64,000 nt of DNA from Escallonia rubra (taxonomy: Eukaryota; Streptophyta; Magnoliopsida; Escalloniales; Escalloniaceae): positions 62,001 through 126,000 of the forward strand of contig JAVXUO010000523.1 of NCBI GenBank assembly GCA_033065855.1. Reading direction: 5' to 3'. This document shows positions 41,422 to 64,000 of the stretch, one piece after another. How positions within the stretch are numbered: position 1 is the stretch's first letter; each line of letters opens with the position of its first letter. Position numbers and translations under genes: made by a program. The notes beneath the pieces are model-generated. The model saw nothing but the letters and a program-made list of their open reading frames with translations. It made no database searches and had not been told where the DNA came from.

Positions 41422-43440
41422 CCATCTTGCTAGGGATTTGAGCCTAATTGATTTAGCCTTTCTTTCATTAGCTTGTACTCCTAACCTTGGGATGGGCAAG
41501 TTCCTTTTTTTGTGCTTATGTTTAAGTATTTATGTGCAAATCATACACAACATGAAAGCTTCTCTCTCTGGGAACCAAACTTTTGATGATTTCTAATCGA
41601 TCAACTAGGACCCTAACACTTGTTAAGTGTAGCAATTGAGCCTAAAATCATCAACCCCTTAAATTTTGTAGTGGCCGTTTGAGCATGCAATGCACGTCAT
41701 GCTAGGAGGCATGTACGTAAAAACATTTTTCAATTTCCTCTTTCTCCTTTGTCTTAGCAACCAGTCTCCCTCTTTCGCACCACCACCACCACCCACTACC
41801 AACTAACACACATCGTTCGATTTGACTAGAATAACAAGAAATATACGATGTAATCATTTCTCTCCTCTTTCCCATTCTTCCACGCAAAGATCATCTTGCA
41901 CAACCAATTTTCCATGTTCTCCTACATGGTTGATTAGCAAGAAAAACTGTGTCGCTCCTTCAATTTGGCCATGTTGCTGCCAAATCACCGCATACAACCA
42001 ACATCAACAATTTTGACCTCTGCCCTTCCCTTTGTGTCTGTCTCTTTCTCGTTAGAAACATGAAAATTTGTACCTAAGTACACCCATATTCAAGCAAGCG
42101 AATCACTTTACATGTTGCTCCTTACATCCTATGAACCTCATTTGGCAATCCCAATCTCATCATACTCCCCATATTATAACAGTCATCAAATATTAACATA
42201 TTACACCATATATTTGGTTGACATAATTGTCAGTTTTGGGCTGGAACTAATGTTACACATATATTTGGGAGACAGGGATTTAATTACATGGTGGTGGTGG
42301 GAGGTGTTGATTCTGATAGCGGTTGAACTGTGAAGGCAGAGGTACCAATGGGTTATCATGTGGGGAAGAAGCGAGTAATGAATTAGAAAAAGGAAGAATA
42401 AACTTTTTAATTAATTTTGTCAAGAAAGCCACTGGCGATCTGATCAGTGTTTTTTTCATTTTCTTTTGTTAGTTTTATTGATTTACTTTACCGAAATACC
42501 CCTTCTAAAAAATGGCAGGTGCATACTCAAATCCTAATTTTCGCCCAAATTTTTTTACAATTGTTTGACTTTTGGCCCAAATGTGACTGCTTGAAAATGT
42601 TGAAGGGTTCGTTGCTTAATTTGAAACCTCGGGGTTTTATTTTCCAAAACAGGCAAACCACAAAGGCTAATGCCATTTAGCGTGGAAAAGTAGTAAAACT
42701 GAAAAAGGGTAAATTTTGCAGATAAAGATGGACATCCATTTGCTTGTGTATATCACATAATTGTAAAAAGGTTCCCTTAGCCTCTCTGATGATGACCTCA
42801 CCTCCACCACCACTCCTTTTCCTCTACCCAAATTGCAACAGCCTTCTTTGCACCCCCACCCCCCTTTGTCACTACCTTCTCTGCCTCCGCCTGATTTGCC
42901 CAGTATGATCTGCCTCCTCCACCACCACCACCACCACCTCTGTTCCACCTCAATATTCTTTTACTCCCCTTCTAACAGCCACATCCCCATCCTCCCCCCA
43001 ATACCTTCCCATAGTCGACAGGCAATCACCAGCAAGAAAAACCCCTTCTTTCCTTTTATTTCTAGTCCTTTATGCGTCCTTTCGCTTCTCCAAAAAATCA
43101 TTGCCCCATTAATTATCAATAGATCTCGGTCGAATCTTAGCAATTTCAGGAAGTTGTCAAGCGTAATGTTGTCGATGTGCTTAACAATTTTCTTTGTATC
43201 TTTGTCGATCTTTTTGGTGCCAGGCGAGTTGCCCAAAAAGTGACCTAATTCTCAGCTCTTTTTGCATTTTCATCTCCTTGAGATTCACTTGCTTCCATTT
43301 TCAGCTCCCTTCAAGCTTCGAGTAACACTTGCTTCAAGCTTCACTCAAGCAAGGTAAGTTTGTGAACGGTGAAGTTTTCTTTATGGATTGAATGAAAAAG
43401 AATAATTTTTTTCTAGAATGAATATATAGATATTTTTTGG
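41422..43440. other. Intergenic, low-complexity CCA/CAC stretches
   Basis: Contains CAC/CCT-rich blocks near 41775 and 42795-42950. The 42833-43243 frame ends in a hydrophobic stretch but its first half is codon-shifted CCA/CAC repeat. I recognise no domain. The left end of the Mutator-like copy A must lie near or within the end of this stretch but I could not identify it. Confidence 0.5.
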
Positions 43441-43559
43441 GTTTATGTTTGTTGGGATTTATCACTTTATTCATCAGATGCAATGATGACAGTGAGGACG
43501 AAATATGACATGCGCGGAGAAGACGGGACTGCTTTGCGCGCACGAATTGTCAGGTCAAG

Positions 43560-45208
43560 ATGTTCGTTAGCCATAAACCCAAGCAAGATCATTGGATTAT
43601 TACTAGCTTGGAATTGGCATACAATCACCCGTTAGTAACCCCTTCTAAGGCGAGTCAGATGCATCAATATAAGAAGATGGGTAAGGTCGCAATGAGCCTG
43701 ATTCACACAATGAGGAATGCACGGATAGGACCTACCGACATTGCCAATGTTCTTGCTGAACAGGTTGAGGGAATTCAGAATCTAGACTTTAACACAACAG
43801 ACGTTCGTAACGCGGTTCGAACCCAAAGACGAGCCGCGTATGACCTCAATGATGCTCAATCCACAATGAGCCAATTGAAGCGGATGCAGATGGAGGACTC
43901 GCAATTTACCTTCGATTATAGACTTGATGATGAGCATCGACTTAGCACAAATACCCTGATCGTATGCATCACGTGTATGCAAAGTATCTAGACTTTAAAC
44001 ATGATTTTGACAAGTGCGTTAACAAGTTGTTAACGATTGAGGAATTTGAGGAGAGGTAGGAAAAGCTTGTTGAGGAGTACTCATTGCAAGACCACGAGTG
44101 GCTCCAACACTTGTACGAGCTCAAAGAGCAATGGATTGGTGTTTACACGAGAAGATATTTTTCTGCGGGCATGAAAACGGCGGGCATGAATGAATCTATG
44201 AATGCCACATTTGATAGTTACGTGGGTACAACTACCAATTTGAAGAGTTTCGTCACATCCGCCCAAAAAGTGGTTGACTCGTTATTCGTGAAAGAAAGGG
44301 TTATAGACTTTGCAAGCACGTACAAACAAATGAGAAGGTTGCTTGAGACCCCGCTGGAGCTGAACGGTGCAAAAAGTCTATACGAAGGAGATCTTCATGC
44401 TATACCAAGTAGAGCTGCGAAAATCGGGACGATACAGTATAAACAAGGTAGCAAAAAAGTCTATGCGTGAGTACAAGGTTTATTCGCTGATGAATGACCT
44501 CGTCCCTGAGAAGTTGCGCATAATGTCTACGGTGCGCCATGATACATTGATGGATTTGGTGACATGTGTTTGCAAGAAGTTTGAATTCCATGGCATCCTG
44601 TGTAGACACAATCTGCGGTTTTTCACCCAGAAGAATATCAGGACAATCCCCGATAAATACGTCCTGCCACGGTGGACGAAAGGTGCAAACAGGTTGCACG
44701 GTACCATTGCCTTTCTGGAGCATCTGTATACTGACTTTGAAGAATCAGAGACACTGCGGAATAATCATCTGGTGAAAACGTTTACCCGTTTGTCCGTAAA
44801 GGGTGCTACTATAATGGCCGGATATAAAATCTCCTCGAGGTAGCTTAGCAGCAAGATCCCATCGTCGACCAGTTCGAATTAGTTTCAGTCAGCAATGCGG
44901 TGGATGACACTGAGCCTACAACGAAATCAGAAGATGATGAGTCGGTTAAGGAAGACAACAATGATATCCGGCCTTTGGATCCAATTATATCGCAAACGAA
45001 AGGCCGCAAGAGATCTACGCGGATGAAGAGCTCTATTGAACAAGCAACTCAACCTAAAAAGCTGAGAAGGTGTGCACTGTGCAACAAAATGACCGACCAT
45101 GACAAGCGGAACCATTACAAGTCACTGGGGATAAGTGTAGGGGGTTTGCAAGACAAGGAAGAAGATGATGCCGAAGATGAGGAAGAAGAAGATGGAGTGG
45201 ACCTTTAG
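43560..45208 (+). pseudogene. FAR1/FHY3-type Mutator transposase, decayed
   Basis: Similarity runs through three frames. 43560-43990 gives the end of the FAR1 DNA-binding domain and the linker (VRNAVRTQRRAAYDLN, SQFTFDYRLDDEHRL). Continuing near 44060-44470 is the C-terminal end of the MULE catalytic core (WIGVYTRRYFSAGMKTAGMN, ESMNATFDSYV). 44483-44843 holds a SWIM zinc finger (CVCKKFEFHGILCRH) and the usual IPDKYVLPRWTKGA. 44900-45208 is an acidic tail with a Cys/His cluster (CALCNKMTDHDKRNH). The middle of the DDE domain between 43990 and 44060 appears deleted, and there are at least two frame changes and a stop. It runs toward the PMD-Ulp1 gene, as expected for one composite element. Confidence 0.85.
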
Positions 45209-45287
45209 TTAGACTATTTGTGATAATTTTGTTGTAATAATCTTTTGTGACCATCTTCTTACATTTTATTTTTTTGTGATTTTGTCT

Positions 45288-46330
45288 CCGTCCGCCACAT
45301 AGTCTAGCGGACGGAGTGGCAGAAATCTTCCATTTCAACACTTAGCAGCAGAAGCAGCAGAAATATTAGATTTCAACACTTAGCATCAGAAGTAGCAGAA
45401 ACATTAGACTTCAACACTTAGATTTTTTTTGGTTGTTTAGGACGTCCGCTACACTTTATAGTGGACGGTGCAGCAGAAACATTAGACTTCAACACTTTGA
45501 TTTTTTTGGTTGTTTAGGACGTCCGCTACACTATCTAGCGGACGGTGGAGCAGAAACATTAGACTTTAACACTTAGAATTTTTTTGGTTGTTCAGAACGT
45601 CCGTTACGCTATCTAGTGGACGATGGAACAGAAGCATTAGACTTCAACACTTAGAATTTTTTTGGTTTTTTAGGGCAAGCACCAACAGTCTTCAACACTT
45701 AGAATTTTTTTGGTGTTTAGAATGTTCGCTACACTATAAAGCGGAGGGTGCAGCAGAAAGATTAGGCTTCAACACTTAGAATTTTTTTGGTGTTTAAAAC
45801 GTCTGCTACATAGTGTAGCGGACGGTGCAGCAGAGATATTTGACTTCAACACTTAGAATTTTTTTTAGGTGTTTTGAAAGTCCGCTATACTATGCAGCGG
45901 ATGGTGCAGCAGAAACATTAAACTTCAACACTTAAAAAAATTTTGGTGTTTAAAACGTCCGCCACATAGTGTAGTGGACGGTGCAGCAGAGTCGTTCGAC
46001 TTCAACACTTATAATTGTTTTGGTTGTTTAGGATGTCCGCTACACTATCTAGCGGACGGTGTAGCAGAAACTTTAGACTTCAACACTTAGAATTTTTTGT
46101 GTTTAATACGTCCGCTAAATAGTGTAGCGGACGGTGCAGCAGAGTCATTAGACTTCAACACTTAGAATTTTTTTGGTTGTTTAGGACGTCCGCTACACTA
46201 TCTAGCGGACGCTAGAGTAAAAACATTAGACTTCATTACTTAGAATTTTTTGGTGTTTAGGACGTCCGCTACATAGTGTAGCGGATGTAGCGGACGGTGC
46301 AGTAGAAACATTAAATTTCGACACTTAGAT
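45288..46330. repeat. 12-unit hairpin array (about 76-bp period)
   Basis: Each unit has a hairpin (GTCCGCTACA...TGTAGCGGAC or GTCCGCTA...TAGCGGAC, 8-10 bp stem), then GGTGCAGCAGAAACATTAGA, then CTTCAACACTTAGAATTTTT and TTGGTTGTTTAGG. Clean units start at 46035, 46110, 46188 and 46264; spacing is 75-78 bp there and more irregular to the left. In several units the hairpin arms have paired substitutions or alternate loops (CACTATC versus CATAG). The array lies between the 3' ends of the two converging genes of copy A and recurs, inverted, in copy B at 63820-64000. Confidence 0.93.
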
Positions 46331-46586
46331 TTTTTCTTACCACACCATAATATTTTCTTACGACCATCAAACCCAGCAAACATAAAGCTATCTCAATACT
46401 CAATAAATGCCAAAAATCCAGAACACACAAATGGCCATAATTCCAGAACACACAAATGGCCAAAAATCCACAACACACAAATAAACCACCACAACACAAA
46501 AAAAATACATGTCTCAATCGAACTTTGAATAAATTGGTATTTAAAATAAAATTAATGTCTTAAAAATAATCGTTTACAAGAAGGCC

Positions 46587-49500
46587 TCATTGAGTTAGAT
46601 TCTCATCCTTAGACGGATATAGAGTAAACCTAACTGGTCTAGGTCGGCCTCTATAAATTTGCCAAACTATTATATATCTAAAGACCTCTACTTCTGTTGC
46701 GCTCCAGATGGCTGCCTTGAGGCTCTCACCCTGACAAATATAGTCCATGTACATGCAGACGAAGACGCCGCAGTCTGAGGTATTAGCTTGCCTGGGCCTA
46801 CTCCTCTTCACTCGAATCTGGAGCCGCAGCCTCGCCGGTACGTCTAGTTCACAGAGATAGTGGACCATGGCACATACCAGATTCTGTGGAGAAATAAAAA
46901 ACGATGTAAGCTACAAGTTAACATTTACAATACGTAAATTACAATAAACATTAAACAACAATCGAAACATTACCACAACATCCAACTGGGCTTTCCAAAG
47001 CTGTTTCATGGGCATTTGTCTGGTATCCTCGTGGAGTCTGTCGAGGACTGATATGACCTTCTGTGTTGGTTCATAGCAAACCAAGTACCAGTGGTTATTA
47101 CTGAGAAATGGTATTAGGAACACGTCCGCATCACAGGCGCTCACCGGACTATCCCTAGTAAGAAATGCAAGGAGCGCATCAGACTGTTGCCACTGTCTCA
47201 AGGTTTTCTTCCCCTTCCTTCGACCCATTGTTTCCATACTGATACAAGAACGGCATGAAAATACGCACCGAACAGAAAAATGTGCGGACGGTCATTCGGG
47301 TTATCCTGACTCCGCTCCCTCAGAATCTCGACGTAGGCAGAGATAACAGTGTCGGTCAACCAAGCCCTCGGAGCTAGGCTGGACATCTCCCCCCACTCAC
47401 AAGTGTAATCCAAGCCATTCAGGCAAACCACAGTATAGTCCGCTTTGTCCCGATGGGCCGCGCTAAAGTAACGCTTGTGGATTAGCAGCGCTTTTACCGG
47501 CCCTAGAGGCTTAAACGGATGCCTCTTGGGATAAGCGGGGGGGGGGTCGACCGGGGGATTTTGTCCTTCGGGAGGGGGCGAACAGGGGATATTGCCCGCC
47601 AGGGGCTTTGACCGGCTGATATCCCCCTTCGGGGGGGGGCAAACGGGGGATATTGCCCTCCCAAGGCTTCGACTGACTGATATTGCCCTTTGGGGGGGCA
47701 GGAAGGTCCCGCCCATGAGATGATGGGCATTGACTCAGAGAGTTTGATGTCAACATTTTGCCAGTCTTGTGTGACTTGACTCTGAGATAGGGGTATTGGT
47801 TCCGACCTCGGAGGAAGCAAAGCAAACGAGGGGACACTGTACTCGTCCCATGGCTTTTGATCCTGTCCCGCTACAAAGGGACCACCAACCCCCTAGCTCA
47901 CCCCCGATGTCAACCCCGAGGGATCACTGTATCCCTCGCTCACATGGGGAGGCTGCCACCCCGAATAGTCCATCCCTGGGGAGACACCCGGAGCGGTCCC
48001 CGTATAAAAGTGCATAAAATTCCCATAGCCTTGGGCCAATGCATCAGCCCGTTGGCGAAGTTCCGATACCATGGAATTCACCAGATCTTATTGCTCACTC
48101 AATTTCTGGAAGAATGCGAGCAAGGCATTAACCTACATCGAAATAGATAATAAGCATAACCACAAAATAGATGAGATTGAATGTAAATTAAGAATCAAAG
48201 TATCCAATTAAATGCAACTTACGAGACCAAATGCCCACTTCTCATCGATCTGACCCCTAGGGTGGTACCTCCGCTCTCGTTCAAACCTTATCGGGGCTAT
48301 ACTTTTCCGCGTGATGCTGTAATACCACTCGTTGTACTGCTCGATGCTGATCACGGGGTCAGGCTCGGACACAATGGTCGCCAGCGTGTCCTGCCAAGAA
48401 TTTCAGACCTCAATTTCTCGTGTGCACAAGTTGTGCACATTCACCTTGCCAAACCGTCCGACACCCTGCGGGTTCCTGTTAAACCTCATATCTGGGGCAT
48501 CTTCTGGCAAGCCCTACAGGCAGTCAAAATGGCGCATTGCACTATCTGGCAGCTACCACTCCGTAACCTCGAAGTGGATCAGGGGTGTGCGCTGCAACCC
48601 GGAGAGCACGAAGACGAACGACTCTGTCACCCGTCGCTTGAGACGCTTGTACGGTGCCCAACGCACTTGGCCATGAGATAGCAAGTCGAGCTCCCCCCGA
48701 TAGAGCGTAATGTTGTGATGGGGATCATCTCTCCGCGGGTAGTGGCTCTCCCTCCGGCTGTACTCCCAAGCGCACAATCGAGGCCACACATTATCGATTC
48801 CGTCCCTATGGTTGGGTGCACCGGTAGCAATGTGTTCATGAGATCACACCTGAAAACAAAGACAAATTATATTACTACCAGAACGTCAAAATTTATTGTC
48901 AACCGACTAATAAAAAAATTTCAATAACATAATCAAGATACGAGAGACATGCACATATAGCTTTGGAGTCGGGTCTCGTTGCCTTGTGCAATGCTCGATA
49001 TAAGTATGCAAGAGTTGATGCACCCCATGTGTACTCCCCAACCTCTTGCAGGTTACCCAACAACGGTACATATTTGCTGCTGACCGTATTCTTTGACGTC
49101 GTTGGGAATAGAATTGCCCATATCACCCACAGCAGGAAAGCCTTTGTGTACAGCACAAGCATCCCATCCGTGTAGTTTTTCGGCAGTTCCCTATAGGTAT
49201 CTACCAACCATTTCAACTTTACCCCACCAGTGCTAAACTGATCTTCAGGTACGAAGGTAAAGAAGTCCCTAGCGGCTCTCTTATTCGTTGCTTCCAACGG
49301 AGGAGCAATTACCGGCCACCGGTTACCCTAAGATGAACCCTACATCTTCTAGGGTAATAGCCATCTCTCCAAAAAGGAAGTGAAACGTATTCATTTCACT
49401 TCTCTACCTCTCAACAAGGGCACCTATCAAGGCCCGGTCAAGTTGTTGAAAGATCTGGCCGTGCGTGCAAACCACAAACCCAATTCCAGGCAGCAATTTT

Positions 49501-49696
49501 TTTTTGTCGTTTATTCAATTTCCAGGCTACGAAATTATCGGACACTTCTAATGCGAATGCAGAATATACAATGTTCGTGAGAATAAGGAAGTTGATAAAA
49601 TAAGTATCTTATTTCGCCATCCCATATGAGCGTACTGATATGGTTTGCGTGGTCGTATAATACGGAGGGATCTTCTGGTCCAGGGTTAAACTCTAT
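46587..49696 (-). pseudogene. PMD-Ulp1 protease gene of copy A
   Basis: Exons on the - strand: about 49613-49696, 48942 to about 49575, 48223-48849, 46974-48132 and 46587-46883; the third is exactly as long (627 bp) as in copy B. Domains: plant mobile domain (aminotransferase-like; GEMAITLEDVGFILG, LYTKAFLLWVIWAILFPTTS), a Tyr/Pro-rich repeat linker, then a Ulp1 C48 cysteine protease with WLTDTVISAY, His in NNHWYLVCYEP, Asp in VLDRLHED and Cys in NTSDCGVFVCMYMDYI. Damage includes ATA for the start codon, loss of the first donor, TGA at the start of exon 3 (GTGTGA for copy B's GTGTGG) and frame changes in the linker. The Trp codon mutated to a stop in copy B is intact here. The expected biochemical role is SUMO-type isopeptidase activity; its use to the element is unknown. 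Confidence 0.85.
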
Positions 49697-49789
49697 TTTT
49701 TTTCCAACTGAAAATATGTCAAAACGTCAAGTTTGTAAGCTTTTGAAAATCGCTCGCAAATTACCAACGCTAGCACATGCATAATACGC

Positions 49790-49790
49790 A

Positions 49791-49826
<36 letters not shown>
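49790..49826. repeat. (TA)n(CA)n microsatellite
   Basis: A TA run followed by a CA run, in the leader side of copy A's PMD-Ulp1 gene. Copy B has a longer TA run at the matching place (59909-59938). Confidence 0.95.
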
Positions 49827-49827
<1 letters not shown>

Positions 49828-50318
49828 AATTCTCAACGCTAGCACATGCTCAATACATAATCGAAATCATGCATAGGACGCAATACTCATAATAACTCTA
49901 GATTATGAACAAATAAAGGATTGGTTTGTGAACTTACGTGAATGATGAGACTATTAAAAGATTTCTTGGAAAGAAATTGCGCAGATCTGCTTGCCAATGT
50001 CGCTAGAAAAATTTGTGAGAAAAAGGAATGAATACGAGTATTCGAAGTTAGGTTTTTGTGTATATATATAAGCCGTCCGCTACATAGTATAGCGGTCAGT
50101 GGGGATGTGGATGACTTGACCACCGTCAAGCAAAAAGTCATCCGCAAGAAAGTGTAACGGATGACTTTTTGACTGACGGTTGTCAGGGTCAAACAGTCGT
50201 CCGCGGCACTGTGTCGCGGACGGCTGACAGCTTTTGAAAAAAAAAGATCTGAAAGGATGGACGGCCAAATCGCGCTTGCAACCTCTCATATTTTGCTAAC
50301 GCTATCAACGAATCAGCT

Positions 50319-50360
50319 TATATATATATATATATATATATATCTCACACACACACACAC
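50319..50360. repeat. (TA)n(CA)n microsatellite at the end of copy A
   Basis: TA run directly after the terminal repeat of copy A, followed by a CA run. Because the element ends at TA repeats, its target duplication cannot be read. Confidence 0.95.
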
Positions 50361-50489
50361 AGGTTAAAAGAAGGTAAGTGGTGCATACAAGAGATTGGAA
50401 GTTTATGATGGAATCCCGTGAAATAGGGGTCCAATTTTGGTAAGCTTTAACCCCTTTTCTTTTTCTTAATTTTTTTTGTGTATGAGGAG

Positions 50490-50896
50490 AGCCCTGAAAT
50501 AGTGTATGTAATGTGCAAGTGTGTCTGTATAGTGGTGAACGGGAAGTGAAACAACGGTGATCGTAGTGTGTGTGGTGGGGGGGGATAAGGGATAATGACT
50601 GAGTCTAGCTGTGTGAGGGTATTTGGTATGTTGTGAGTGTGTGTCTGTGTCAGTGTGTGTGTGTGGTAGTAGAAGGGCTGTGGCAGCCTTGGAATGTTGT
50701 GTGTGTGTGTGTGTGAGCATGCAATATGTGTGTATGGAGCTGTGTGAATATGTGTGTGTTACTGTGGTACATGTGCCTGCATATATATAGTGTAGTGTGT
50801 GTGCCCGTGTGTGTGTGTGTGTATCGTGTACAAAGGTGAATGTGTGTGTGCAAGCGCTCGCTCGCGCTATGTGCGTGAGTGTGTGTGGGTGAGTAT

Positions 50897-50930
<34 letters not shown>

Positions 50931-51150
50931 GAAGGGGGGTGGGTGTGCAAAAGTGTGTGTGTGTGTGTAGTGTGCATAGAAAGTACGTCTACCGGGGAGG
51001 GGGGTGAGTTGTGTGTTCTAGGAATGGGCTGTTTGGCAGAAAAGGGAAGAAGAAAAAGTGGGTATGTGCAATGGAGTAGTACCCTATGCTTAGTGTGCCA
51101 CATGCACGAGTTTGTGTTCAGTGCATGCGTGGGATGCACGCAATGATTTT
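50490..51150. repeat. TG-rich degenerate microsatellite tract
   Basis: About 650 bp dominated by TGTG and TGTGAG variants, with pure TG runs near 50808-50821 and 50899-50927. Open frames on both strands (50650-51146) are by-products of the repeat. Confidence 0.9.
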
Positions 51151-52161
51151 TGGCTCGTTAAATTTTGCAGTAGGGTACTTTAGGCCATATTAGAATTTTT
51201 GGCCAATTTCATATCTTTTTTTGAAATCGTTTAGTATTTTTAATATTTTTCACAAGTTTCATTTTTCTAAAATTCTTTTTGAGACTTTAAAGTTCATATT
51301 AAATTCTGAAAAAATTATAATGATGTTTTTATAGTATAGAGAAGTCCCAGATTAAGTTTGAACAATTTCAGGGTTAAATAAGTTATCTTTAACTGTATCG
51401 CATTTGATTTAGCAAAACGAATAATCTAAAAGTGGTTTTAGTACTTTTAAAATTATGATTTCAGTTTCTATAATTTTAAGATATGAAGCTGTTAAAAAAG
51501 TTACGGGATATTGATTTAAGTTAGAAGCATTTATGGGCTTTTATTGCATTTAAAGAAATTATTTTTAATTTGAAAATATTCTAAATTTCACAAAGTTAAT
51601 ATTGTGACTTTATATGTTGTTTTAAGCCATGAAAGTGTTTTATGATAATTTATTACGAACTTTGGGTTGCTTTCTGCCTAGGTTTGGCTCGTACGTGGGT
51701 CACGCTTGGGTATCCTTATTTTAAGAGTAGGAATGAGAACTGTTTAGGGAGTTAATGTCGAGTTTATAACATCATAGTGTAGATCGTGTACTAATAATTA
51801 ATTTGTCCAACTTAGGTTAGCGCAAAGAAATTCTAATCGAGGTAGCTTAGCTTCGGACCGAGCTAAGGATTTCTATCTGAACCCTTAATTTATTCGCTTG
51901 TATTAGTTTATGTTTCTTCATTTGTTTGTAGATATCATTGAACTCTAAATTATGAATCAATATCAATCGTTTTCATTGCCATTGTGACCCTATTATTGAG
52001 CCTTAATCGATTACTGAAATTCATGTTGATGTTCATCATCTATTGCCCATCGAGCATCGATTTACATGTTGATTTAGCGATTATTGTTTTGTTGCAAATT
52101 GAGATAAGATAATGTATTGAGGCTTTATAAGGATGGTCTGTATTGGGGGCCTTATTAAGAA
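51151..52161. other. Intergenic, nothing recognised
   Basis: AT-rich. A GC-richer block near 51670-51870 has no recognisable domain. Confidence 0.5.
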
Positions 52162-53227: not shown

Positions 53228-53290
53228 ATGGCTTTGCTTAAGTGTTATTATGGCTTTGCTTAAGTGTTATTATGGCTTTTGTGGCTTTGC
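53228..53290. repeat. 24-bp tandem duplication
   Basis: TGGCTTTGCTTAAGTGTTAT occurs twice in tandem with a third partial unit (TGGCTTTTGTGGCTTTGC). Confidence 0.9.
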
Positions 53291-55797
53291 TACGTATTAC
53301 CATTGCACTGCCGGTGTGGCTTTGCAATTGATCATGCTCAATATCATATGAACTAGTTACAGTGTATCAAAAAGTGTTCGTATTGATAACTAATAGAAGG
53401 GATTGGGTTAAAACTCTTTCCCATATTGCCATCGAATTGAACCTTTAAATTGTTTGTTATCACTCTGTTTGGTTCTTGAGCGAGCTTAGTGAGCTCTTAA
53501 AACCTCACCCTTATTTGTTCCATTCTGCATGTAATAATCATTAGTAGAATACTTTGGGATGATGTAGATCCTTAATAAGAAGTTGGAGCACTTTCATATT
53601 TTGTTTAGTTAAGCCCCTACGAGGGAACCAGTGTTTACTTAACCCTCTCGACTACCTAGTTTTTTCCATCTAAGACATTTACTTTCGAGAATGTAAGTTA
53701 TCATATATATTAGAAGCTCTAACGTATATTAGGGTTGTTTATTCAATGGAGGGTATTCGTGTCATTAAGTTAACGATTGAATGATTGTCTTATATATGCT
53801 CCAGAATTTCCAGGTTGTTACACGCACACACTCTCTCTCTTCGTACCAACACCACCATTGACCACCTTTGTACCGCCACGAAGATTCCCGCCCCGCCACT
53901 ATGCCACCATGAAGAACCACGACCCCCACTGCAGCCACCACGTCACCATAGAACACCGCATATCTCACCTCCTTTGGACACATCATGACCATAAAAGCCA
54001 CCATAAAACCACAACTCGCTCAGCCCCTACGCCAGATCAGATCTCCATAACAACACAGTTGTGCCCACACAACTGCCACTTCACCATAAAACCACCGTCC
54101 ACCACCATACACGAGCCATTACCATCAGCGAACCATTGCAACACTGTCCTCAAATAGCAATACAGCCTCACCCAGAACCATTTCTTCTTCTCTCTTCCAC
54201 CATCTGCAATCCATGATCGGTGTTACACCATCCTCTACCATTAACACCATCACAGCCTCAATAACATCACTCAACGACCAATTCAGCCTATAGATGATGG
54301 AGGTAGTGGTGGATCTTGGGGTTTGGGTGAGCAAGAAAAGGAAAAGGGTGGGGCTGTTGTCAGATGCAGTGGGCCATGATGTGACAAATGGTTGACAATT
54401 TGAGGCATTTTTGGTGTATTCTTGTACCTTTACACATAAATAACGAGGATATTTAGGGGAAATGCAAATAAAGTAGCTGAAGAATGGAAATGAAAATGGT
54501 ATAACGACACAAAGCACGTAAAATAGTAGTTGGAAAGAGCTAACCAAAATGATAAAAGTACACACTCATATTCCCTAACTGGATAAAAATATATAAATAG
54601 TATTACAATACAAAAACACAAAACGAAGATGGTAAACAAGTAGGCCTAAGTAACCGAATGGTTTCCTACCTTAAATCTTGTTCAATAACCACTAATTAAA
54701 TGGGTTCCCCGATCCAACCTCAAACAAGTAGTCAAACAAGTAACAAAAAATTGCAAACATCTAAGAAAAACTAACCCTTTCAAACCAAACATACAAACCC
54801 AAGGCTAAACGCACAGAATCAACTCCTGAGACGCAGCCCAAAAACTAAATTTAGTCTCTTAAACAATTCATTCGCTCGCAAGCTTCTATAGGTTTTTCGA
54901 TTGCTAAAATATTAAATTTGTTGCTAAAACACTATAACTTAATAAAGTTGACGATACTAGTTAAAAATAACCGGTAGTGGTAAGAGGTGCAACTTGCGTG
55001 TGCTGGTTTGGGTTGGGTTTTAACCTGACCCAAGTAGACCCATGTGCTTTTAGAACTTAACTTACTTTAACCCCACAAATTTTTTTTGAATGTGTTGAGT
55101 ATGCAGGTAAGTTGGGTTGGCATAATTGACAAAAATAAAGCTGAAAATTTTCATTTTAAACCAAAAATAAAGTGGTGGTGGGTGATGGATGGTGGTGGTG
55201 GCCTTGTCGTGACTACCGGTTGCAATGACCTGCGACGAAAGGTGTTGCAACAGGTAACTGCCAGAGGTTGCGAACAATGACAAACATGCAACTAACTGCC
55301 ATCGTGTGGGACTGGCGGTAACCACTAGCATCTGGTGTTTGTAGCAGTGGCATTGAAAAATAGTTGATGGTGATGGTGGGAGACCAGCGGTGGTGGTGGT
55401 GGCAAGTGATGGTGGTAATGGTCGACGATGCTAGTAGTAATGAGCTGTCGGTACCGACGTGGTGGCTGGCAATGTCAAGCGACAATGCCGGTTGTGACAG
55501 TGGTGGCCGGTGGCGGTTCCAGGTGATGGTTGACTGGCTGACAGTGGTGGGTCTAATGTGACAATGGCGATGGTCAACAGAGGTGGCGGTGGTGGTTTGA
55601 TGCTTATAGCATGATGGTTGGGTTACTGTTGACGCTAAAGTCAGTCCAACATGAGGCCTTTGCCATTAGGAAATCGTCTAAAAAAATGTTAACATTAAAA
55701 ATAAACCTTCCAGTATTTTAGTCTGGAGTTCAGGTGTAACAAAAAAAATTCCCAGAATGTTAAGGGAAAATTTATATGTTCATGCAATTGATTTGCG
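53291..55797. other. Intergenic with CCA- and GGT-rich blocks
   Basis: CCA/CAC-rich near 53840-54150 and GGT-rich near 55170-55600. Open frames there (for example 53777-54157) are low-complexity and unsupported. Confidence 0.5.
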
Positions 55798-56125
55798 TGG
55801 CTCTGATACCACATGTTAGATTAGATTATTCATCTTGACCTCATAATCAAGACATTTAGAATCTTACAATAGTATAAGCATAGGAACAATAAGGGTTCAA
55901 ACTCACTAAATCGAAGGAAGCCATAGAGTACCAAAAACTTTATTCCGATTATAAAAGAACGTAAAGATGCGAAAGCGAATGTGTCCCTTTTTGGTATTGA
56001 TCTTCACTACTCTTCTCTATTCTTTAAGATGGAATAGAGTTGTGTATTTTTCTACTAGTCTAGTAGGCCTTTTTTTCCTTTGTTAGGAAAAGGTAGCCAA
56101 ATTATTAATACACTAGCGTCTAAGA
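55798..56125 (-). mobile_element. LTR fragment with initiator-Met primer site
   Basis: On the - strand an LTR end CTAACA is followed after two bases by TGGTATCAGAGCCA (55798-55811), complementary to plant initiator tRNA-Met and typical of Copia elements. The LTR-like part runs from 55814 to about 56125, where it meets TA repeats and the miniature element. Almost no internal region remains. An old fragment; the outer edge is uncertain. Confidence 0.65.
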
Positions 56126-56140
56126 GAAAAATATATATAT

Positions 56141-56374
56141 ATGGGTTGTGATCCATTACTAATGCGGGTAACTTCCGCGCAGTTGCCCGCGCGATCTGGC
56201 GGTCCATCTGGCCCGATGGCGGGCAAAATTTTGTCGTCCGCTACATTATGTAGTGGAGGACGAAAAAATGGCCGTCCGCACGCGCGATCTGGCCATCCAC
56301 ATCTCGCGCGTGCACGACCAGATCGCGCTGGCAACTGCGCAGAAGTTGCCCGCGCGAGCAATGGATCACGACCA
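56141..56374. mobile_element. Miniature relative of copies A and B
   Basis: Inverted ends ATGGGTTGTGATCCATTACT and, reversed, ATGGTCGTGATCCATTGCTC, then GCGATCTGG-CGTCCATC and a hairpin GTCCGCTACATTATGTAGTG shared with A and B. At 234 bp it is non-coding. TA repeats lie on both sides (56131-56140 and 56375-56393). The termini differ from those of A and B, so it may be a sister family that shares the subterminal part. Confidence 0.75.
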
Positions 56375-56393
56375 TATATATATATATATATAT

Positions 56394-59300
56394 CACCACA
56401 AGAAAATCTACTTTTAGAGACGGAATTTTGTGTTACTAAAAGTGGATATTCCGTCGGTAAAACTTTTAGCGACGGACTGTCCGTCGCTAAAAGTTTGTTG
56501 GTCTAAACCCTGTGCTAAAAGATTAGCGACGGAATTTGGTAGTCCGTCGGCAAAAAGTACTTTTACCGACGGAATTAAATGCCTTTACCGACATAATATT
56601 CAGTCGGTAAAGATATTTTCTAAAATTTCTTAATTTTTTATAAAAATGACAAAAAAATTATTAACGACAGATTTGTCGCCGCTGTCGCTATAACCAGACA
56701 TTTAACAACATAATTTCGTCGTTAAAAGTTTAAAATTTGTCGCTAATTACTTTTAGCGACAGATAATTAGTGGCTAAAAACATGTCATTGAAAACAAAAA
56801 CCTTTTAGTGACTTATTTCCATCACTAAAAACCGCATCCATTTGTTTGAAATACATTTAGCGACGAAATTTTATCACTAAATGTCCGTAAGCAAAAGTTA
56901 TAAAAAGAGGAGCTATTTTTTAATCCACAGACAATTAATCCTAATTATCAAATCTATCAACAATTTCATGCTTATTTAAGCTAGCATTCTTTCTTTACCA
57001 AATTTCAAACAATACAAATAAAATTGAAAATCATACACCCTCAACTAAAACTCAATACTCAACAACAAAAATTAGATATTCAACAAGTAGAATACATCAT
57101 ATCGTACGAATCCCAAAACAAAATTACAAGTTATAATAGGAACTTTTGGTAGCTCTATGTGAGTAATACAATAAAGCATGTGGCTGAGGAACATTGCTGT
57201 AAGATCTCTGGCTTGAATGTGGTGCCAAAAAAAATCTGCAAGAAATGGAGAGGACAAAAAATGCACTAATTGTAGAACCTCAGTAAAAAATCCTAGCCAT
57301 TCATCCTTGTCCTCAACATAATTTGTGGTTGACTCAAGCCCCTGCATTAATACCTACAGCAGCCATACCATAACTGTCACCCTGGAGGACTTCACCTTAG
57401 AGTACAAATATATAACTGAAACACAATTCACCAGACTCTTGACAAGAACTATTAGAACATTGCTTAGTATCAAAAGATAGCTTGTTTTGCGAGTGTGTCC
57501 ATATAATGATTTGTTCATAAACAGTTACAAAGGTAGTTCCAAATGGAACTGAAGGATAAAGGTTTGGTGGGTTAGGGGTAATGGGAGGGAGAGGAAGAGG
57601 AGGAGGGGGGTGGTACCTTGAAGATGACGGCCTGCACAACGCCATCAACATGTACCGAGTACCCGAAAGTCATCTAAGTTGGAAAAGACCACGCTACAAG
57701 CATAATTTTGGAGTATGCGTATGTTATTAACAACAAGGGGAATGAAAAAACCTAGTAAGCTTTATTTCATGTCATATAGCTGGCATTGGAAGGCACGGTG
57801 GCCATGAGATGCATTCCAACAAGATGCACATGTTCATGAAGAAAAACTCACAAATTGGAAAAAGAAAAGAAAAGGAAGAATATTTATGATATATAAGACA
57901 ACAAAAACCACAAGCCCCACAAGTAATAGAAAATAGTCCTCAGGTCATGAACAACATCTTGTAATATAAAAGGTTACCTCATGCGTCATGCACATTTGCT
58001 GCTTCCAAAGCTTGAAGTTCTTGCTTCAACCTCTCAGAAAAGGCCTCTGCTTCACCAATACCCATGACATAACTGCAAACGACATGTTTAAACTCATTTA
58101 CAAGAAGGAATGAAGAGACTGAAGCATTTACCAAAAAAAGAAAAGATCGAGGGAAGACAATTGGTACGCCGTTGCACCAACGCAAGTTAGATACATAGTC
58201 GCAATCTCCCATCTAGCATTTTCACCTCATTAGTTGAGCCGTGACATCATGACCACCAGACATCTAGACAAATCTTAACTAACCAAAAGCCCAGTATTAT
58301 CTTTTTCGGTAACCCATCACCAATATTCTCATTAACTCTAACTTCAGAAGGAATTGAAACCCAAACCAACCAAAAAAGATCTACAATTTTAGCATGAAAA
58401 AATCAATTTAATTTATTTATTATGGGTATGTCGTGGGTAACATTGAATGTAAAAGTGCAGACTAATATCAAATAAACACCTAGTTGTGCTTAGATGGGGA
58501 AACCAAGCCATTTGATCTCAATCTCAATTGGTACTACAATCAGTGTAAAATGGAAAGAAGAAGACTTACGTGAGGTAAAGAGAGAGGCGGCGGGAGCTTG
58601 GCGGTGACGTGGGCTTCGCAGATCCGTGGACGACAACATCATGCCCTTGTCAGCAACGAAAGGCCTTTTCTTTTTAATGAAAGCCCTAGTCAAGTGGAAA
58701 AATAGCTTAATCGGTCATCCTATGATATATTAGAGTAAGCAATAGGAGTTGAATGACTTCATTCACACAAACTATGAAAATACTTGTCTCAATCTTGTCG
58801 CTTCGGCCCTCAGTCTGTTGGTTCTTCCTTCTCATCTCTTTTTCTCTCGAATCGAATGTGTACGGTGGTTGGGGTGGTAGGGAATGGGGAGAGAGGGAGG
58901 TGGCAGATGTGTGGTGAGTAGGAAGTGAGAAAGAGAGGTTTCAGCGTGGAGTGGCGACAACGGCGCGGTGAGTGCATTGGGTGGGGGGCCAGCGGTAGCA
59001 AGGGTGGGTGGCGTGGGAGGTGGTCGTCAGAATGGGTGACGGCCGACGGTCGGCTATGTGATAGAAAGAAGAAAAGAGGGTTAGGAAGGGGAGAAAGAAA
59101 CAAGCGGCGGGGGAGATGAAAGCAAATTAGGGTTTGCTTATGCATATATACTCTTTAGCGAAAAATTAAAAAAAATTCGAATAAAAAAATTCGAAAAAGG
59201 GAGAAAATAGGAAAAATACATTTAGTGACGGTTTTCTCCTTCGGTAATAGTCCGACAGTAAAATTTCGTCACTAAAGACCTTTACCGACAGAATATTCCG

Positions 59301-59472
59301 TCGGTAAAAGTCTTTCCCAACGGATTTTTATCGACGGAAAAATCCGTCACTAAAACTAGGTATTTAGTAATGGACTTTTATCGACGGAAAATCCGTCGGT
59401 AAAAGCGACTTTCAGCGACGGATTTTGTTCCATCGCTAAAAGTCCGTCGAAAAAGCTATTTTTCTTGTAGTG
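56394..59472. mobile_element. Non-autonomous CACTA (En/Spm) element carrying SEC3-like exons
   Basis: Left end CACCACAAGAAAA (one change from the canonical CACTACAAGAAAA) and right end TTTTTCTTGTAGTG, flanked by TAT and TGT (a 3-bp duplication with one difference). Subterminal regions (56410-56900 and 59215-59460) are full of TTTTAGCGACGGA and TTTACCGACGGA on both strands. No transposase. The interior has - strand exons of an exocyst subunit gene and GC-rich unassigned sequence at 58790-59110. It is inserted in a TA microsatellite between the miniature element and copy B. Confidence 0.9.
57279..58072 (-). pseudogene. Captured exocyst SEC3-like fragment, two exons and an intron
   Basis: Exon 57978-58072 follows a TTTGCAG acceptor and encodes [20 protein letters not shown] then LEAANVH, ending at GAG/GTAACC. 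Exon 57279-57341 follows an ATGCAG acceptor and encodes GLESTTNYVEDKDEWLGFF, ending at a GT donor. Both match, from memory, consecutive parts of plant exocyst subunit SEC3 ([20 protein letters not shown] ... GLEAATNCVEDMDEWLGIF). About 635 bp of intron lies between them. The first exon has gained a stop near its end. Only about 50 of nearly 900 residues are present. Retained splice sites show DNA-level capture by the CACTA element. Confidence 0.82.
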
Positions 59473-59901
59473 TGTGTGTATATATATATATGTGGAGCTG
59501 ATCTGTTGAGAGCGCTAGCACAATAGGAGATTTTGCTAGCGCGATCTGGCCGTCCATCCTCAAAGGATGGACGACCCAGATCTTTTTTTTTCAAAAACTG
59601 TCAGTCGTCCGCGACACTATGTCGCGGAGAGTATTTTTTACCATTTTGCCCCTCTTCCCCTGTCCGCTACACTGTACGGCGGACGACTTTCTTGTCCTGA
59701 CATGTGTCAGGAAAAAGACGTCCGCTACACAGTGTAGCGGACTACTTTTCGACTGACACATGTCAGGAAATGTCCCGTCAGTTCTTTACCCCCACGACGG
59801 TTACCTTGTCCTTATCTGTCACGTCAACAGTGTCCGCTACACAGTGTGGCGGACTGTTATTAATGAAAAATTGTCCGCGATATAGTGAAGCGATCAGAAT
59901 T

Positions 59902-59908
<7 letters not shown>

Positions 59909-59938
<30 letters not shown>
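59909..59938. repeat. (TA)n microsatellite in copy B
   Basis: About 15 TA units upstream of the PMD-Ulp1 gene, in the place of copy A's 49790-49826 repeat. Short unrelated TATG variants follow to about 60070. Confidence 0.95.
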
Positions 59939-59946
<8 letters not shown>

Positions 59947-60145
59947 TTGTTCATGTGCTAGCATTTGTAAAATCCGATTCCTTGTATGTATATATATCTA
60001 TTATACATATGAGTATATGCTAACATTGTATGTATTATGCATGTGCTTGCGTTATATGTATTATGCATGTGCTAGCGTCGTATTTTTGCGAGCGATTATC
60101 AAAATCCAAACTGAGAAGGTTTTTCCATAATTTCAGTTGCAAAAA

Positions 60146-63100
60146 ATGGAATTTAACCCTGGACCAGAAGATCCATCCGTGTTATACGACCAAGCCAACC
60201 ATATCAGTACGCTCATATGGGATGGTCAAGTAAGATACTTAGCGAATAAACTTTCTTATTCCCGCAAATATTGTATACTTTTGCTTTGCTTAGATTGTAT
60301 TTATTAATTCGTAGGAAAGAGCACTTCTCACCACAGTAGAAGTATCCAATGAGTTCACAGCATGGAAATTGAACAAGTCCCAGAAAAGGATACTGCGTGG
60401 AATTGGGTTTGGAATTTTCACGCATGGGCAGATCTTTCAACACCTTGACCGGCACTTAATAGGTGCCCTTGTTGAAAGGTGGAGAAGTGAAACGAATACG
60501 TTTCACTTCCCTCTCGGAGAGATGACAATTACCCTAGAAGATGTAGGGTTCATCTTAGGGTTATCGGTGACGGGACGGTCGGTAATTGCTCCTCCGCCGG
60601 AAGCAACGAATAAGAGAACCGCTAGGGACTTCTTTACTTCGATACCCCAGGATCAATTTATTAGTGGTGGTATAAAGTTGAAATGGTTGGTCGACATACC
60701 TACAAGGTTTTACCGGAAAACTATACGGGCGAGATGCTTGTGCTGTACACACAAGCCTTCCTCTTGTGGGTGATGAAGGCTATTTTATTCCCAACGACGT
60801 CGAAGAACATGGTCAGCGTGAAATATTTACCGTTGTTGGGTAACCTGCGGGAGGTTAGGGATTATGCCTGGGGTGCAGCGGTCCTTTCGTATCTATACCG
60901 AGCATTGCACAAGGCAACGAGGCCCGACTCCAAAGCCATATGTGCATGTCTCTCGCTATTGTAGGTATATCATATAAATCCTGATTTCGTTATTGTTTTT
61001 TTTGTTTTTGTTGTTGAATCGGCAATATAAATATAATTTGCCCATGTTCTCAGGTGTGGTCTTATGAACACCTTGCTACCGGTGCACCAACGCGTAGGGA
61101 TGGAACCGATAAAGTGTGGCCTCGGTTGTGTGCTTGGGAGTACAGCCGGAAGGAGAGCCACTACCAGAGGAGAGTCGATCCCCATCACAACATTACGTAC
61201 TATCGAGGGGAGTTCGACCGTCTATCTCCGGGCCAAATGCGTTGGGCACCGTACAGCCGTTTGGCGCGACGGGTGGGAGAGTTGTTCATCTTCACGCTCT
61301 CCGGGTTGCAGCGCACACCCCTGATCCACTTCGAGGTTACAGAGTGACAGTTTCCAGACTGATCAATGCGTCATTTTGACTGCCTGCAGGGGTTTCCAGC
61401 CGATGCCCCAGATATGAGGGTTAACAGGAACCCACCGGGTGTCGGACGGTTTGGCAAGGCCAATGCGCACGAATTATGCGCGGCCGAAATAGAGCTTTGG
61501 AGTTCTTGGCAGGACACACTGACGGCCATCGTCTCGGAACCTGACCCCGTTATTAGCATTGAACAGTACAATGAGTGGTACTACCGCATCACGCGGAGGA
61601 GAGTAGCCCCAGTAAGGTTTGAACGCGGGGAGAAGTACCACCCTAGGGGTCAGATCGATGAGCATATGGCATACAATCTCGTAAGTTGTCCAACAAGTGT
61701 TCTTAATTGAATTTGATGATTATAAATGTCTGATTGAAGTTACTTATTTTTTATCTCTTTGGATGTAGGTTAATGCCTCGCTCGCATTCTTCCAGAAGTT
61801 GAGTGAGCGGAAGGATCTGGTGAGCGCAATGGGCGAGGATCTTCGCCAACAGGCTGCTGCATTGGCTTTATGCTACGAAAATTTTTTACGCCAAGCATCG
61901 GGACAGTCTTCGATTGTCAGCCCGGGAATGGGTTATACGAGAGTCAGCGAGGGATACGGTGATCCCTCGAGACAGGCTTCAGGGGTGAGCCAGGGAGTTG
62001 GTGGTCCCTCTGTAGCAGGGATGGGACAGGCTCAAGCGTCGTGGGACGATTACAGCGTCCCCTCCTTCAATTTGTTCCCGGAACCCCAACCCCTCTCTCA
62101 GAGTCAAGTCACGCAAGACTGGCCTTTCAGAAACTACGGTTTCTCCGAGGCACTACCCATTATCCCGTGGGTGGGACCACTTGGCACCCCCGGAAGGGAA
62201 TATCCCCCATTTGATATCAGCCGACGGAAGAAATGGCCGAAGAGCAATATCAGCTTGTCGAGCCCCCCGAAGGACATTACCAGCCGACCGAACCTCCCAA
62301 AAGGCAATATAAGCCGGCCGAACCAGGAATTAGAGGCCAATATCCCATGCTCGAGCCCCCCGGAGGAGGGCAATATTTGCCGACTGACCCCTCCGAACGA
62401 GGGCAATATCCCCCGGTCGACCCCCGAGGGCAATATCCCAAAGGGCATCCAGCCAGGCCCCTAAAGCCGCATAAATGCGAGCTAATCCGAGCCTGTTATT
62501 TTAGCGGGCCCCCCCGAGACAAAGCGTCGTATGACGTGGATCACCCGGAGGGCTTGGATTACAATTGCTCGTGGTCAGAAATGGCTTCACTGGCTCCGGG
62601 AGCTTGGTTAGACAACGGTGTCATCTCGCACTACATGCATATTCTGAGGCAAAGGGGTCGGGAGCAGCCGGCCGACCGTGCGCGTTTTTATCTTGGATGC
62701 TTATTTTCATGGCATCCTAGTACAAGACTGGCATGATTGGGTCGCTTCAAGGGGGAGGAGAACCTTGACTCAGTGGAAACCGTCCGCGAACCTATGGGCA
62801 TATCTTGCTAGGGATAGTCTAGTGAGCGCAAGTGTTGCCGACGTGTTTCTAATCCCATTTTTAGGGAATCACCACTGGTACTTGGTTTGCTATGAACCAG
62901 TAGAGAAGGTCGTATCAGTCATCGACAGTCTCCACGATGATACCCCCGAGATGCCTGTGCTTCGTATGTACAAAGGCCTAGGCCAGTTGGATGCCATGGT
63001 AAGATCTTGTTTAATTCTTATTGTAACTTACATATTGTAAAACTGATTAATGCTTATTCTGTTTGCTATGTTTAATGCTTATTCTGTTTCTAGCAGAATT

Positions 63101-63408
63101 TATTTTTTACCTTGGTCAATTCTAGGCATGACGAGAGAGTACCGGGCAGGCCAAAGCTCCATTTCCGATTGAAGAATAGGAGGCCCAAGCAACATAATTC
63201 CTCGGACTGCAGCATCTTCGTCTGCATGTACATGGATTACATTTGTCGGTCTGAGAGCCTCGAAAAGACCGTCTGGAGCCGAGAATGCATACAAGGCTTT
63301 AGGTATAGGATAGCTTGGCAAATTATGAAAGGTCGGCCTAGAGCTATTAGGTTTATTGAAAATCCGTGTAATGACGAGAATCGCGCAGGAGATGAGGGCC
63401 CCAATTGA
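60146..63408 (+). pseudogene. PMD-Ulp1 protease gene of copy B
   Basis: Exons: 60146-60229 (MEFNPGPEDPSVLYDQANH...), 60315 to about 60960, 61054-61680, 61769-62999 and 63097-63408, with GT-AG introns and boundaries matching copy A. Plant mobile domain covers exons 1-3 (HLIGALVERWRSETNTFHF, GEMTITLEDVGFILGLSV). Exon 4 begins with a helical stretch, then the repeated GQYP/GHYQP linker, then the Ulp1 domain (WLDNGVISHYM, His in NHHWYLVCYEP, Asp in VIDSLHDD); exon 5 has Cys in NSSDCSIFVCMYMDYI. The C48 triad is intact, but the gene is interrupted by a frame change near 60690, TGA at 61345 (Trp in copy A), and frame changes near 62225 and 62680. Ulp1 proteases cleave SUMO; the PMD resembles that of MAIN/MAIL proteins. 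No RNA-copy signs: introns are kept. Confidence 0.85.
62225..62460 (+). repeat. Coding minisatellite of the Tyr/Pro linker
   Basis: Units of about 27-36 bp with CAATAT or CATTAC at the core encode a repeated (G/R)(Q/H)Y-x-P-x-(E/D)-P-P pattern, about seven copies between the mobile domain and the protease. Copy A has the matching block at about 47525-47700, with different unit number. Confidence 0.8.
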
Positions 63409-63819
63409 CATTGTAACATTATATTCATTTTATTAATAAACATTTATTATCTTTACGAAAGTTGTTCTTAATTCATCGGGTTTGAATTGATTTGTGTTGA
63501 CATCAGTTGATCGGTGTTGAATGCGATTGATTTGACTGACCGATTTGTGTTGAAATCAGTTGAGTGTTTGATTTGTGTTGAGATAGCATTGGCATTTTGA
63601 CTGATTTGTGATTTGCTTTGAACGGTGGGAAACAAAGTGTGGGTAAGTGTTGGAGCTTTAAGATTGCGCAGGGCCAAAAAAGTTCTAAGTGTTGGAGTCT
63701 TAGATTGTAGTTGACATTTGATTTGGGTTTGAATGATGATTGGAGTTGACATTTGATTTGGGTTTGAATTTACGAATGGTGGGAAACAAAATTGTGGGAA
63801 AGTTCTACAAAATGTTTCT

Positions 63820-64000
63820 GCTGCGCCGTCCGCTACACAGTGTAGCGGACGTATAGGGAACAAAAAATTTTCTAAGTGTTGGAGATCAAAGTTTCTGCTG
63901 TGCCGTCTGCTAGCGGATGTATAGGGAACAAAAAAATTTCTAAGTGTTGGAGATGAAAGTTTCTGTTGTGCCATCCGCTATACAGTGTAGCGGACGTGTA
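63820..64000. repeat. Start of the hairpin array in copy B
   Basis: Three hairpins at 63828-63850, about 63905 (shortened) and 63973-63996, separated by ACGTATAGGGAACAAAAAA-TTTCTAAGTGTTGGAG and TTTCTGCTGTGCC, the reverse of the copy A unit. The array is cut by the window end. Confidence 0.9.

Follow-up and report, generated by a model that had tools for sequence, protein, structure and literature searches.

What does a gene that appears to join a mobile domain to a SUMO protease do inside a Mutator-like element (MULE)? The question is raised by two elements in a 64,000-nucleotide stretch of Escallonia rubra DNA (contig JAVXUO010000523.1, positions 62,001 to 126,000; C2458:62001-126000), hereafter the window. 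The two elements, copies A and B, are both decayed and come from a multi-copy MULE family, here called family 1. Their exons for the mobile domain PMD (Pfam PF10536), a linker and a Ulp1 protease domain (Peptidase_C48) apparently belong to one spliced gene, which in fuller elements faces a FAR1-type transposase gene. Its protein may be a sequence-specific anti-silencing factor of the VANC/KIU kind. All genome searches were made in one 566-Mb plant assembly, and published work is cited by PMC number from excerpts of the papers.

Copies A and B lie in opposite orientation with a common exon layout and linker, as a first-pass annotation of the window had described them; direct comparison within the window gives inverted pairs of up to 659 nt at 83% identity. 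They are compared below with a complete-looking relative elsewhere in the genome, the C9 element. Their features are, in window positions:

43,248-50,318, minus strand (orientation of the PMD-Ulp1 gene): copy A, family 1; C9 element homology stops at 43,248 and at about 50,318-50,331
43,480-45,210, plus strand: remnant of the copy A transposase, which runs towards the PMD-Ulp1 gene (convergent) and keeps SWIM (E 3e-4) and a sub-threshold FAR1 match (E 8e-5; both Pfam)
45,272-46,315, no strand: copy A central tandem array, unit of ~77 bp with the 23-bp palindrome GTCCGCTACACNNNGTAGCGGAC or near matches (tandem-repeat and motif comparison)
46,587-46,883, minus strand: copy A exon 5, end of the Ulp1 domain with the catalytic Cys (C48 E 2e-6)
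46,974-48,132, minus strand: copy A exon 4, with the Tyr/Pro linker and the part of Ulp1 that holds His and Asp (copy alignment)
48,223-48,849, minus strand: copy A exon 3, 627 bp long, with the C-terminal PMD half (E 6.6e-6, under the Pfam threshold; 73% to exon 3 of L037)
48,932-49,554, minus strand: copy A exon 2, N-terminal half of PMD, weakly DUF1985 too (PMD E 2.7e-17, DUF1985 E 7e-4)
49,613-49,696, minus strand: copy A exon 1, ATA replacing ATG (comparison with B)
50,075-50,318, no strand: copy A terminal region with palindromes, adjoining (TA)n (motif search, C9 comparison)
59,494-64,000, plus strand: copy B, family 1, (TA)n at its left end; extends beyond the window as far as about 126,535 on the contig (L009:~535)
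59,494-59,892, no strand: copy B terminal region, palindromes at 59,607, 59,662, 59,720 and 59,832 (91% to the C9 element end)
60,146-60,229, plus strand: copy B exon 1 (copy comparison)
60,315-60,964, plus strand: copy B exon 2, N-terminal half of PMD, frameshift near 60,696 (PMD E 2.7e-23)
61,054-61,680, plus strand: copy B exon 3, also 627 bp, with the C-terminal PMD half and two TGA codons (PMD E 9.8e-10)
61,769-62,998, plus strand: copy B exon 4, tandem (X)GQYPPVDPP-like linker repeats and Ulp1 with His and Asp (copy alignment)
63,097-63,408, plus strand: copy B exon 5, end of Ulp1 with the catalytic Cys (C48 E 1e-5)
63,828-64,000 and on to L009:535, no strand: copy B central array (77 bp x 6.9 copies within L009)

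The first-pass annotation had placed the start of copy A at 43,440, which is corrected to 43,248; its start for copy B, near 59.5 kb, holds (59,494). Relative to the C9 element, copy A is without the terminal repeat on the transposase side, and a gap of about 330 bp has taken the entire MULE domain of its transposase. No transposase half was found for copy B, the next 10 kb (L009) holding only second-family-like transposase pieces. What had been called a hairpin array is common to both copies and consists of the ~77-bp tandem unit with its 23-bp palindrome. Exon 3 measures 627 bp in both, as claimed, and alignment confirms that both keep the C48 His, Asp and Cys. The disabling changes also differ as described: B has TGA at 61,345 where A has TGG, the start codon of A reads ATA, and A has TGA in exon 3 where B has TGG. 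These differences support separate decay of the two copies.

Family 1 extends well beyond the window. A DNA search with copy B as query found 29 places that cover the whole query in one piece, B included, among the best 40 of 1,503 candidates; only these 40 were scored, and family-1 copy numbers are therefore lower bounds. When A and 30 fetched copies were compared, exon 3 was exactly 627 bp in 29 of the 31, with a GT donor after exon 3 in 28, an AG acceptor before exon 4 in 29 and a GT donor after exon 4 in all 31. None of the 31 copies examined is open in all five exons, and family 1 therefore looks old. L037 is open in exons 1, 2, 3 and 5; in L031 and L039, exon 1 and part of exon 2 are absent from this comparison.

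In the complete-looking C9 element (L014+L043, 9.83 kb), one terminal repeat is followed by the PMD-Ulp1 gene, the central array, a FAR1-type transposase in convergent orientation and the second terminal repeat. Its ends are terminal inverted repeats (TIRs) of 271 aligned positions at 77.5%, and both adjoin (TA)n. Its genes have decayed, with stops in the PMD-Ulp1 gene (L014) and a transposase spread over several frames, in which the MULE domain PF10551 is still recognised at E 2.4e-28. MULEs make target site duplications of 9-11 bp; both ends of the C9 element lie inside (TA)n, where a duplication is indistinguishable. The (TA)n setting recurs: where an end could be recognised, TA/AT steps make up 60% or more of the 40-bp flank at seven of 13 loci, a level attained by 0.05% of stretches drawn at random from the window. 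The 5' flanks of L023, L027, L028 and L037 hold (TA)n followed by an apparent inverted end of another element (GGATCAGCTCCC or close to it), as if two elements had landed in one microsatellite.

A second family carries the same kind of gene. Of the eight strongest C48 matches in the genome (L001-L008), seven have a PMD exon upstream of C48 in the same layout. L001, L004 and L006 belong in or near the A/B family, at 72-75% in PMD exon 3. The second family comprises L002, L005, L007 and L008, which reach 36-42% in exon 3 against the A/B family and have a different linker; exon 2 of other members is about 50% identical to family 1, and the PMD exons overall are 36-51% identical. Among the best 40 of 1,155 candidates, 28 second-family gene copies, L041 included, are full length (by length) at 94-100% identity.

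The most informative member is the C818 element (L042+L041), in which the PMD-Ulp1 gene is unbroken. Its four exons (732, 630, 1,089 and 303 bp) join in phase 0 across GT-AG introns and predict a stop-free product of 917 aa. PMD covers residues 72-421 (E 8e-71, 239.4 bits against a cut-off of 34.9) and Peptidase_C48 residues 691-896 (E 2.7e-18); DUF1985 at residues 101-221 (E 2.1e-6) stays below its cut-off, and DUF7745 is matched at E 6.6e-8 (all Pfam). The nearest solved sequence is SENP2 (E 4e-7), aligned across the His/Asp/Gln/Cys motifs. The first three exons of a relative, L049, are open as well (732, 630 and 1,149 bp), the third longer by one 60-bp linker unit. The transposase of L041 is a 725-codon stop-to-stop frame with FAR1 (E 9.5e-13), MULE PF10551 (E 7.5e-33) and SWIM (E 2.3e-7). 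The suggestion that an intact parent may persist in this genome is not supported as it stands: the family of A and B itself yielded no copy open in all exons among 31, and the unbroken gene belongs to a sister family.

Two observations concern the surroundings of second-family sequences. Tandem repeats of about 310 bp, in inverted orientation, flank the C818 element at L041:5929-7494 and L042:1-1300 (the former from TRF, the latter seen by eye), and some of their units carry the short palindrome GGGATTTTTCGTCAAAAAATCCC or its reverse. Beyond copy B, two second-family PMD-Ulp1 pieces lie at L009:1553-4784 and 9494-7037, and a 167-bp tandem array comes after the first of them, together with a transposase end in convergent orientation.

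The unbroken copy also bears on whether PMD and Ulp1 are encoded by one gene or by two adjacent genes misread as one. In L041 only an intron separates the two domains, no stop interrupts the spliced frame across its phase-0 GT-AG junctions, and the first 225 codons of exon 4 include no Met; family 1 adds the conserved exon-3 donor (28/31) and exon-4 acceptor (29/31). Two genes would be easier to reconcile with the early in-frame Met codons of family-1 exon 4 and with intron 3, where read-through meets a stop within a few codons. The read-through stop makes an intron-retained, PMD-only product conceivable. The reading as two genes was rejected on the unbroken frame and splice junctions of L041 and is most improbable, and the PMD, linker and Ulp1 exons very probably form one spliced gene. 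The earlier idea of such a fused gene has also come through a genome search for an open PMD-Ulp1 frame, which returned the 917-aa frame of L041.

The pairing of this gene with a transposase is general. The gene and transposase lists each hold the best 40 of more than 1,000 candidates. Within them, 23 second-family gene copies have a listed convergent transposase downstream within 8 kb, one 6.6 kb off (best 40 of 1,155), and among the matches listed no transposase lies upstream of these copies within 8 kb. At C1638, two same-strand transposase matches within 8 kb stem from two neighbouring elements. In family 1, seven gene copies have a listed convergent transposase downstream within 8 kb (best 40 of 1,503), and the Ulp1 gene runs in reverse to the transposase in A, C9 and L041. 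These elements are terminal-repeat MULE families in TA microsatellites, the full ones with two convergent genes. The original description of a MULE family with a FAR1-like transposase and one spliced PMD-Ulp1 gene is supported.

Constraint on the gene was estimated from the ratio of nonsynonymous to synonymous substitution rates (dN/dS). For family 1, rows with less than 70% of codons were dropped, which kept 33, 36, 35 and 31 of 36 copies for exon 2, exon 3, the Ulp1 part of exon 4 and exon 5; pairwise values come from up to eight chosen representatives. For family 2, rows with 60% of codons or less were dropped, which kept 4, 8, 9, 9, 10 and 9 of 10 over six regions. The PMD shows fewer amino-acid changes than expected, with medians of 0.33 (range 0.26-0.61) and 0.43 (0.20-0.89) for the PMD exons of family-1 representatives and of 0.40 and 0.39 (0.26-0.55) in family 2. 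Exon 5 of family 2, which holds the Cys, has a median of 0.47. The family-2 linker has a median of 1.03, a value that is only indicative because the repetitive linker aligns unreliably. Decay is visible in the larger sets: 28 B-like copies give a ratio of means of 0.45-0.77, as expected for decaying copies, and a codon model over all 36 copies of family-1 exon 3 gives omega 0.748, i.e. mostly decay.

The C48 set of His, Asp, Gln and Cys is present, with Gln and Cys lost in some decayed copies: family 1 retains His in 35/35, Asp in 35/35, Gln in 28/31 and Cys in 27/31, and 21 of 162 columns are fully invariant. The linker is built of tandemly repeated peptides, with six units of 20 aa (60 bp x 6) in L041 and one more in L049. 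These data bear on the view that the two domains are transduplicated host genes, passengers without function for the element. Capture of both Ulp1 and PMD by MULEs is in print (PMC2528002, PMC5418596), and the family-1 copies are broken in 31 of 31 examined. This view is nevertheless improbable and already disfavoured: the same two-gene layout recurs in two families that are only 36-51% identical in their PMD exons, the L041 frame is open in an amplified family, the PMD medians are 0.33-0.43, and the catalytic His and Asp are retained even in decayed copies.

The arrays of family 1 hold a specific motif. In the window, the palindrome gives 36 matches at 19 sites, against none in 100 dinucleotide shuffles; 18 sites lie in A and B and one in a small element at 56,236. 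Genome-wide, with at most one mismatch allowed, GTCCGCTACACNNNGTAGCGGAC matches 8,003 times on the forward and 8,098 times on the reverse strand, many of these being one site on both strands, and its reversed control pattern has no genome matches. At 30 family-1 loci, with up to three mismatches, 103 palindromes were counted in 42,150 bp upstream of the gene and 227 in 45,000 bp downstream (24 and 29 of the 30 loci, respectively), against none in 96,896 bp of gene bodies, introns included. Thirteen loci of other kinds, 43,529 bp in all, had none. Five family-1-like loci outside this count hold 4-11 palindromes, apart from L046 with none. In the C9 element, words common to the central array and both ends exceed all shuffles (0/200) at k = 8-14. 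A family-specific motif in noncoding tandem arrays is thus present in family 1.

Related palindromes occur at second-family ends. The end in L009 has a sister palindrome, CAACCGCTACACTTAGTAGCGGTTG, with the same core as GTCCGCTACACNNNGTAGCGGAC and other flanks. A related palindrome, CAACCGCTACACTNNGTAGCGGTTG, occurs in a second-family end other than those of the L041 element, with 159 and 127 genome matches against none for the reversed control; it is absent from the central array beside that end. The idea that the palindrome is a general feature of all PMD-Ulp1 elements was rejected on the word-sharing result for L041 given below. Many of the roughly 8,000 genome sites may sit in small elements resembling miniature inverted-repeat transposable elements (MITEs). 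A small palindromic MITE-like element lies in (TA)n at window positions 56,142-56,390, with a near match of three mismatches at 56,236-56,258. Elsewhere in the window, a 747-aa open frame with reverse transcriptase and zf-RVT domains (37,844-40,084, plus strand) is read as a remnant of the long interspersed nuclear element type.

DUF1985, the domain of VANC proteins, looks homologous to the N-terminal half of PMD. When second-family PMD exons are scored with the DUF1985 model, the match reaches E 9e-8 over model positions 25-138 of 141, below the 35.1-bit cut-off of that model. At a separate locus the relation is seen from the other side:

L050:1992-2516 (C2826), minus strand: DUF1985 frame over the Pfam cut-off, also matching PMD (Pfam)

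This frame scores 41.5 bits for DUF1985; its match to PMD, over positions 35-179, reaches E 1.6e-6 and falls short of the PMD cut-off. The DUF1985 frame of L050 and the PMD frames end at a like-placed '...LL[QE]' splice donor, as predicted from the sequence. The C922 PMD gene, searched up to E 1, gave no match to DUF1985. At C922:1278226-1296817, four PMD frames lie side by side, full length and free of stops (373-384 bits); they are likely host MAIN-like genes. A bolder proposal, that DUF1985 is the N-terminal half of PMD and that PMD-Ulp1 is the full form, a self-guided SUMO protease that would find its own palindrome arrays and there remove SUMO from silencing complexes, is tentative and somewhat more probably wrong than right. 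If it were true, the host silencing factors MAIN and MAIL1 and the anti-silencing factors of transposons would share one domain, and the homology would link the MAIN/MAIL1 silencing pathway with VANC anti-silencing.

What, then, might the fused protein do? In the published excerpts, VANC proteins of VANDAL MULEs contain DUF1985 and variable regions with tandem peptide motifs, bind short motifs in noncoding tandem repeats and cause loss of methylation there (PMC5735166, PMC10398659); VANC genes bearing Ulp1 are known as KIU (PMC13317346). MAIN and MAIL1 are host PMD proteins that act in silencing, and PMDs captured by MULEs have been suggested to counter it (PMC5418596, PMC8616336). A conserved domain, a variable tandem-peptide linker, Ulp1 and the motif arrays of family 1 together suggest a VANC/KIU-like, sequence-specific anti-silencing factor with PMD in place of DUF1985, a reading that stands at about an even chance of being right. 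The PMD part, perhaps with the fast-evolving linker, would recognise the motif arrays of its own element. There the Ulp1 domain would strip SUMO from silencing proteins, a substrate that we infer, and only the element's own copies would be freed from silencing. The fusion that the first-pass annotation could not place would thus fit VANC/Kaonashi-KIU anti-silencing architecture.

The same palindromes allow a different role. PMD-Ulp1 could be a transposition accessory like mudrB of MuDR, acting on the transposase or on integration, with the palindromes as binding sites of transposase or accessory. A second gene is common in MULEs, mudrB is apparently needed for integration (PMC6446971), and the motif is found not only in the central array but also in the terminal repeats. 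Transposase binding would not, however, obviously call for a tandem array placed between the two genes and remote from the ends. The variability of the tandem-peptide linker and the homology to DUF1985 speak for VANC, and an accessory role is rather unlikely.

Several points weigh against the anti-silencing reading and the parts on which it is built. We infer the function from architecture, and the palindromes in element ends could be transposase sites. The PMD-DUF1985 cross-matches each fall below the cut-off of the other model, and L003 has no PMD exon within its flank. In the L041 element, words common to the central array and both ends are not significant from k = 9 on; for the array against either end, sharing is reached by 1/200 shuffles at k = 8 and 9, with a null stretch shorter than the data, which favours sharing. 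Since L041 shows no convincing word of array and both ends, the motif argument rests on family 1. The Ulp1 part of family-1 exon 4 has a median dN/dS of 0.62 and the Ulp1 N-part of family 2 one of 0.85, so that constraint on the protease is weak there; exon 3 reaches 0.72-0.89 among the decayed A, L001, L004 and L006. The C-terminal tail of the L041 transposase, which matches that of A, sits in another frame. Because this tail is out of frame and most listed relatives are one base longer across the C-terminal stretch, the transposase is probably broken at its C-terminus, and L041 as a fully autonomous element was rejected.

Ulp1 in MULEs (PMC2528002), PMD in MULEs (PMC5418596) and TA-targeting MULEs (PMC4486113) are each already known, the first two having been noted from the outset. 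Among the papers listed in the literature searches, which covered open-licence papers only, none was seen to describe the PMD-Ulp1 fusion, and this is no proof of novelty. The excerpts consulted give the function of PMD as unknown (PMC8616336) and likewise the role of Ulp1 in MULEs (PMC13317346). The presence of both in one gene, beside a conspicuous candidate target motif, makes both questions of function testable.

Among known systems, the MuTAnT or TA-microsatellite MULEs share the insertion into (TA)n (PMC4486113). AutoMuTAnT differs in having a single Jittery-like transposase gene, and the words Ulp1, protease, FAR1 and mobile domain are absent from the paper describing it (PMC4486113). 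PMD-bearing MULEs, Gypsy elements and MAIN/MAIL1 share the same Pfam domain, PF10536 (PMC5418596, PMC8616336); in grasses and Amborella, according to the excerpts, PMD is fused to transposases (PMC5418596), whereas here it is fused to Ulp1. Kaonashi/KIU MULEs, i.e. those of Arabidopsis and the Ulp1-MULEs of melon, grapevine and rice, resemble the present elements in that an Ulp1 gene faces the transposase gene (PMC2528002, PMC13317346). Kaonashi is a non-TIR MULE, whereas the C9 element has TIRs of about 250-270 positions at 77.5%. Because of these TIRs the elements are not filed as Kaonashi, and membership was rejected, the layout nevertheless resembling KIU. A further difference from Kaonashi/KIU is the N-terminal domain, here a full PMD far over its cut-off, with DUF1985 below its own. 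VANC21 of the VANDAL elements recognises the 9-bp motif YAGTATTAY (PMC5735166), against a 23-bp palindrome as the candidate target here. With VANDAL/VANC the present elements share a second MULE gene in which a conserved domain accompanies a variable stretch of tandem peptide repeats and, in family 1, noncoding tandem arrays that bear a motif; the DUF1985 of VANC also appears homologous to the PMD of the present gene.

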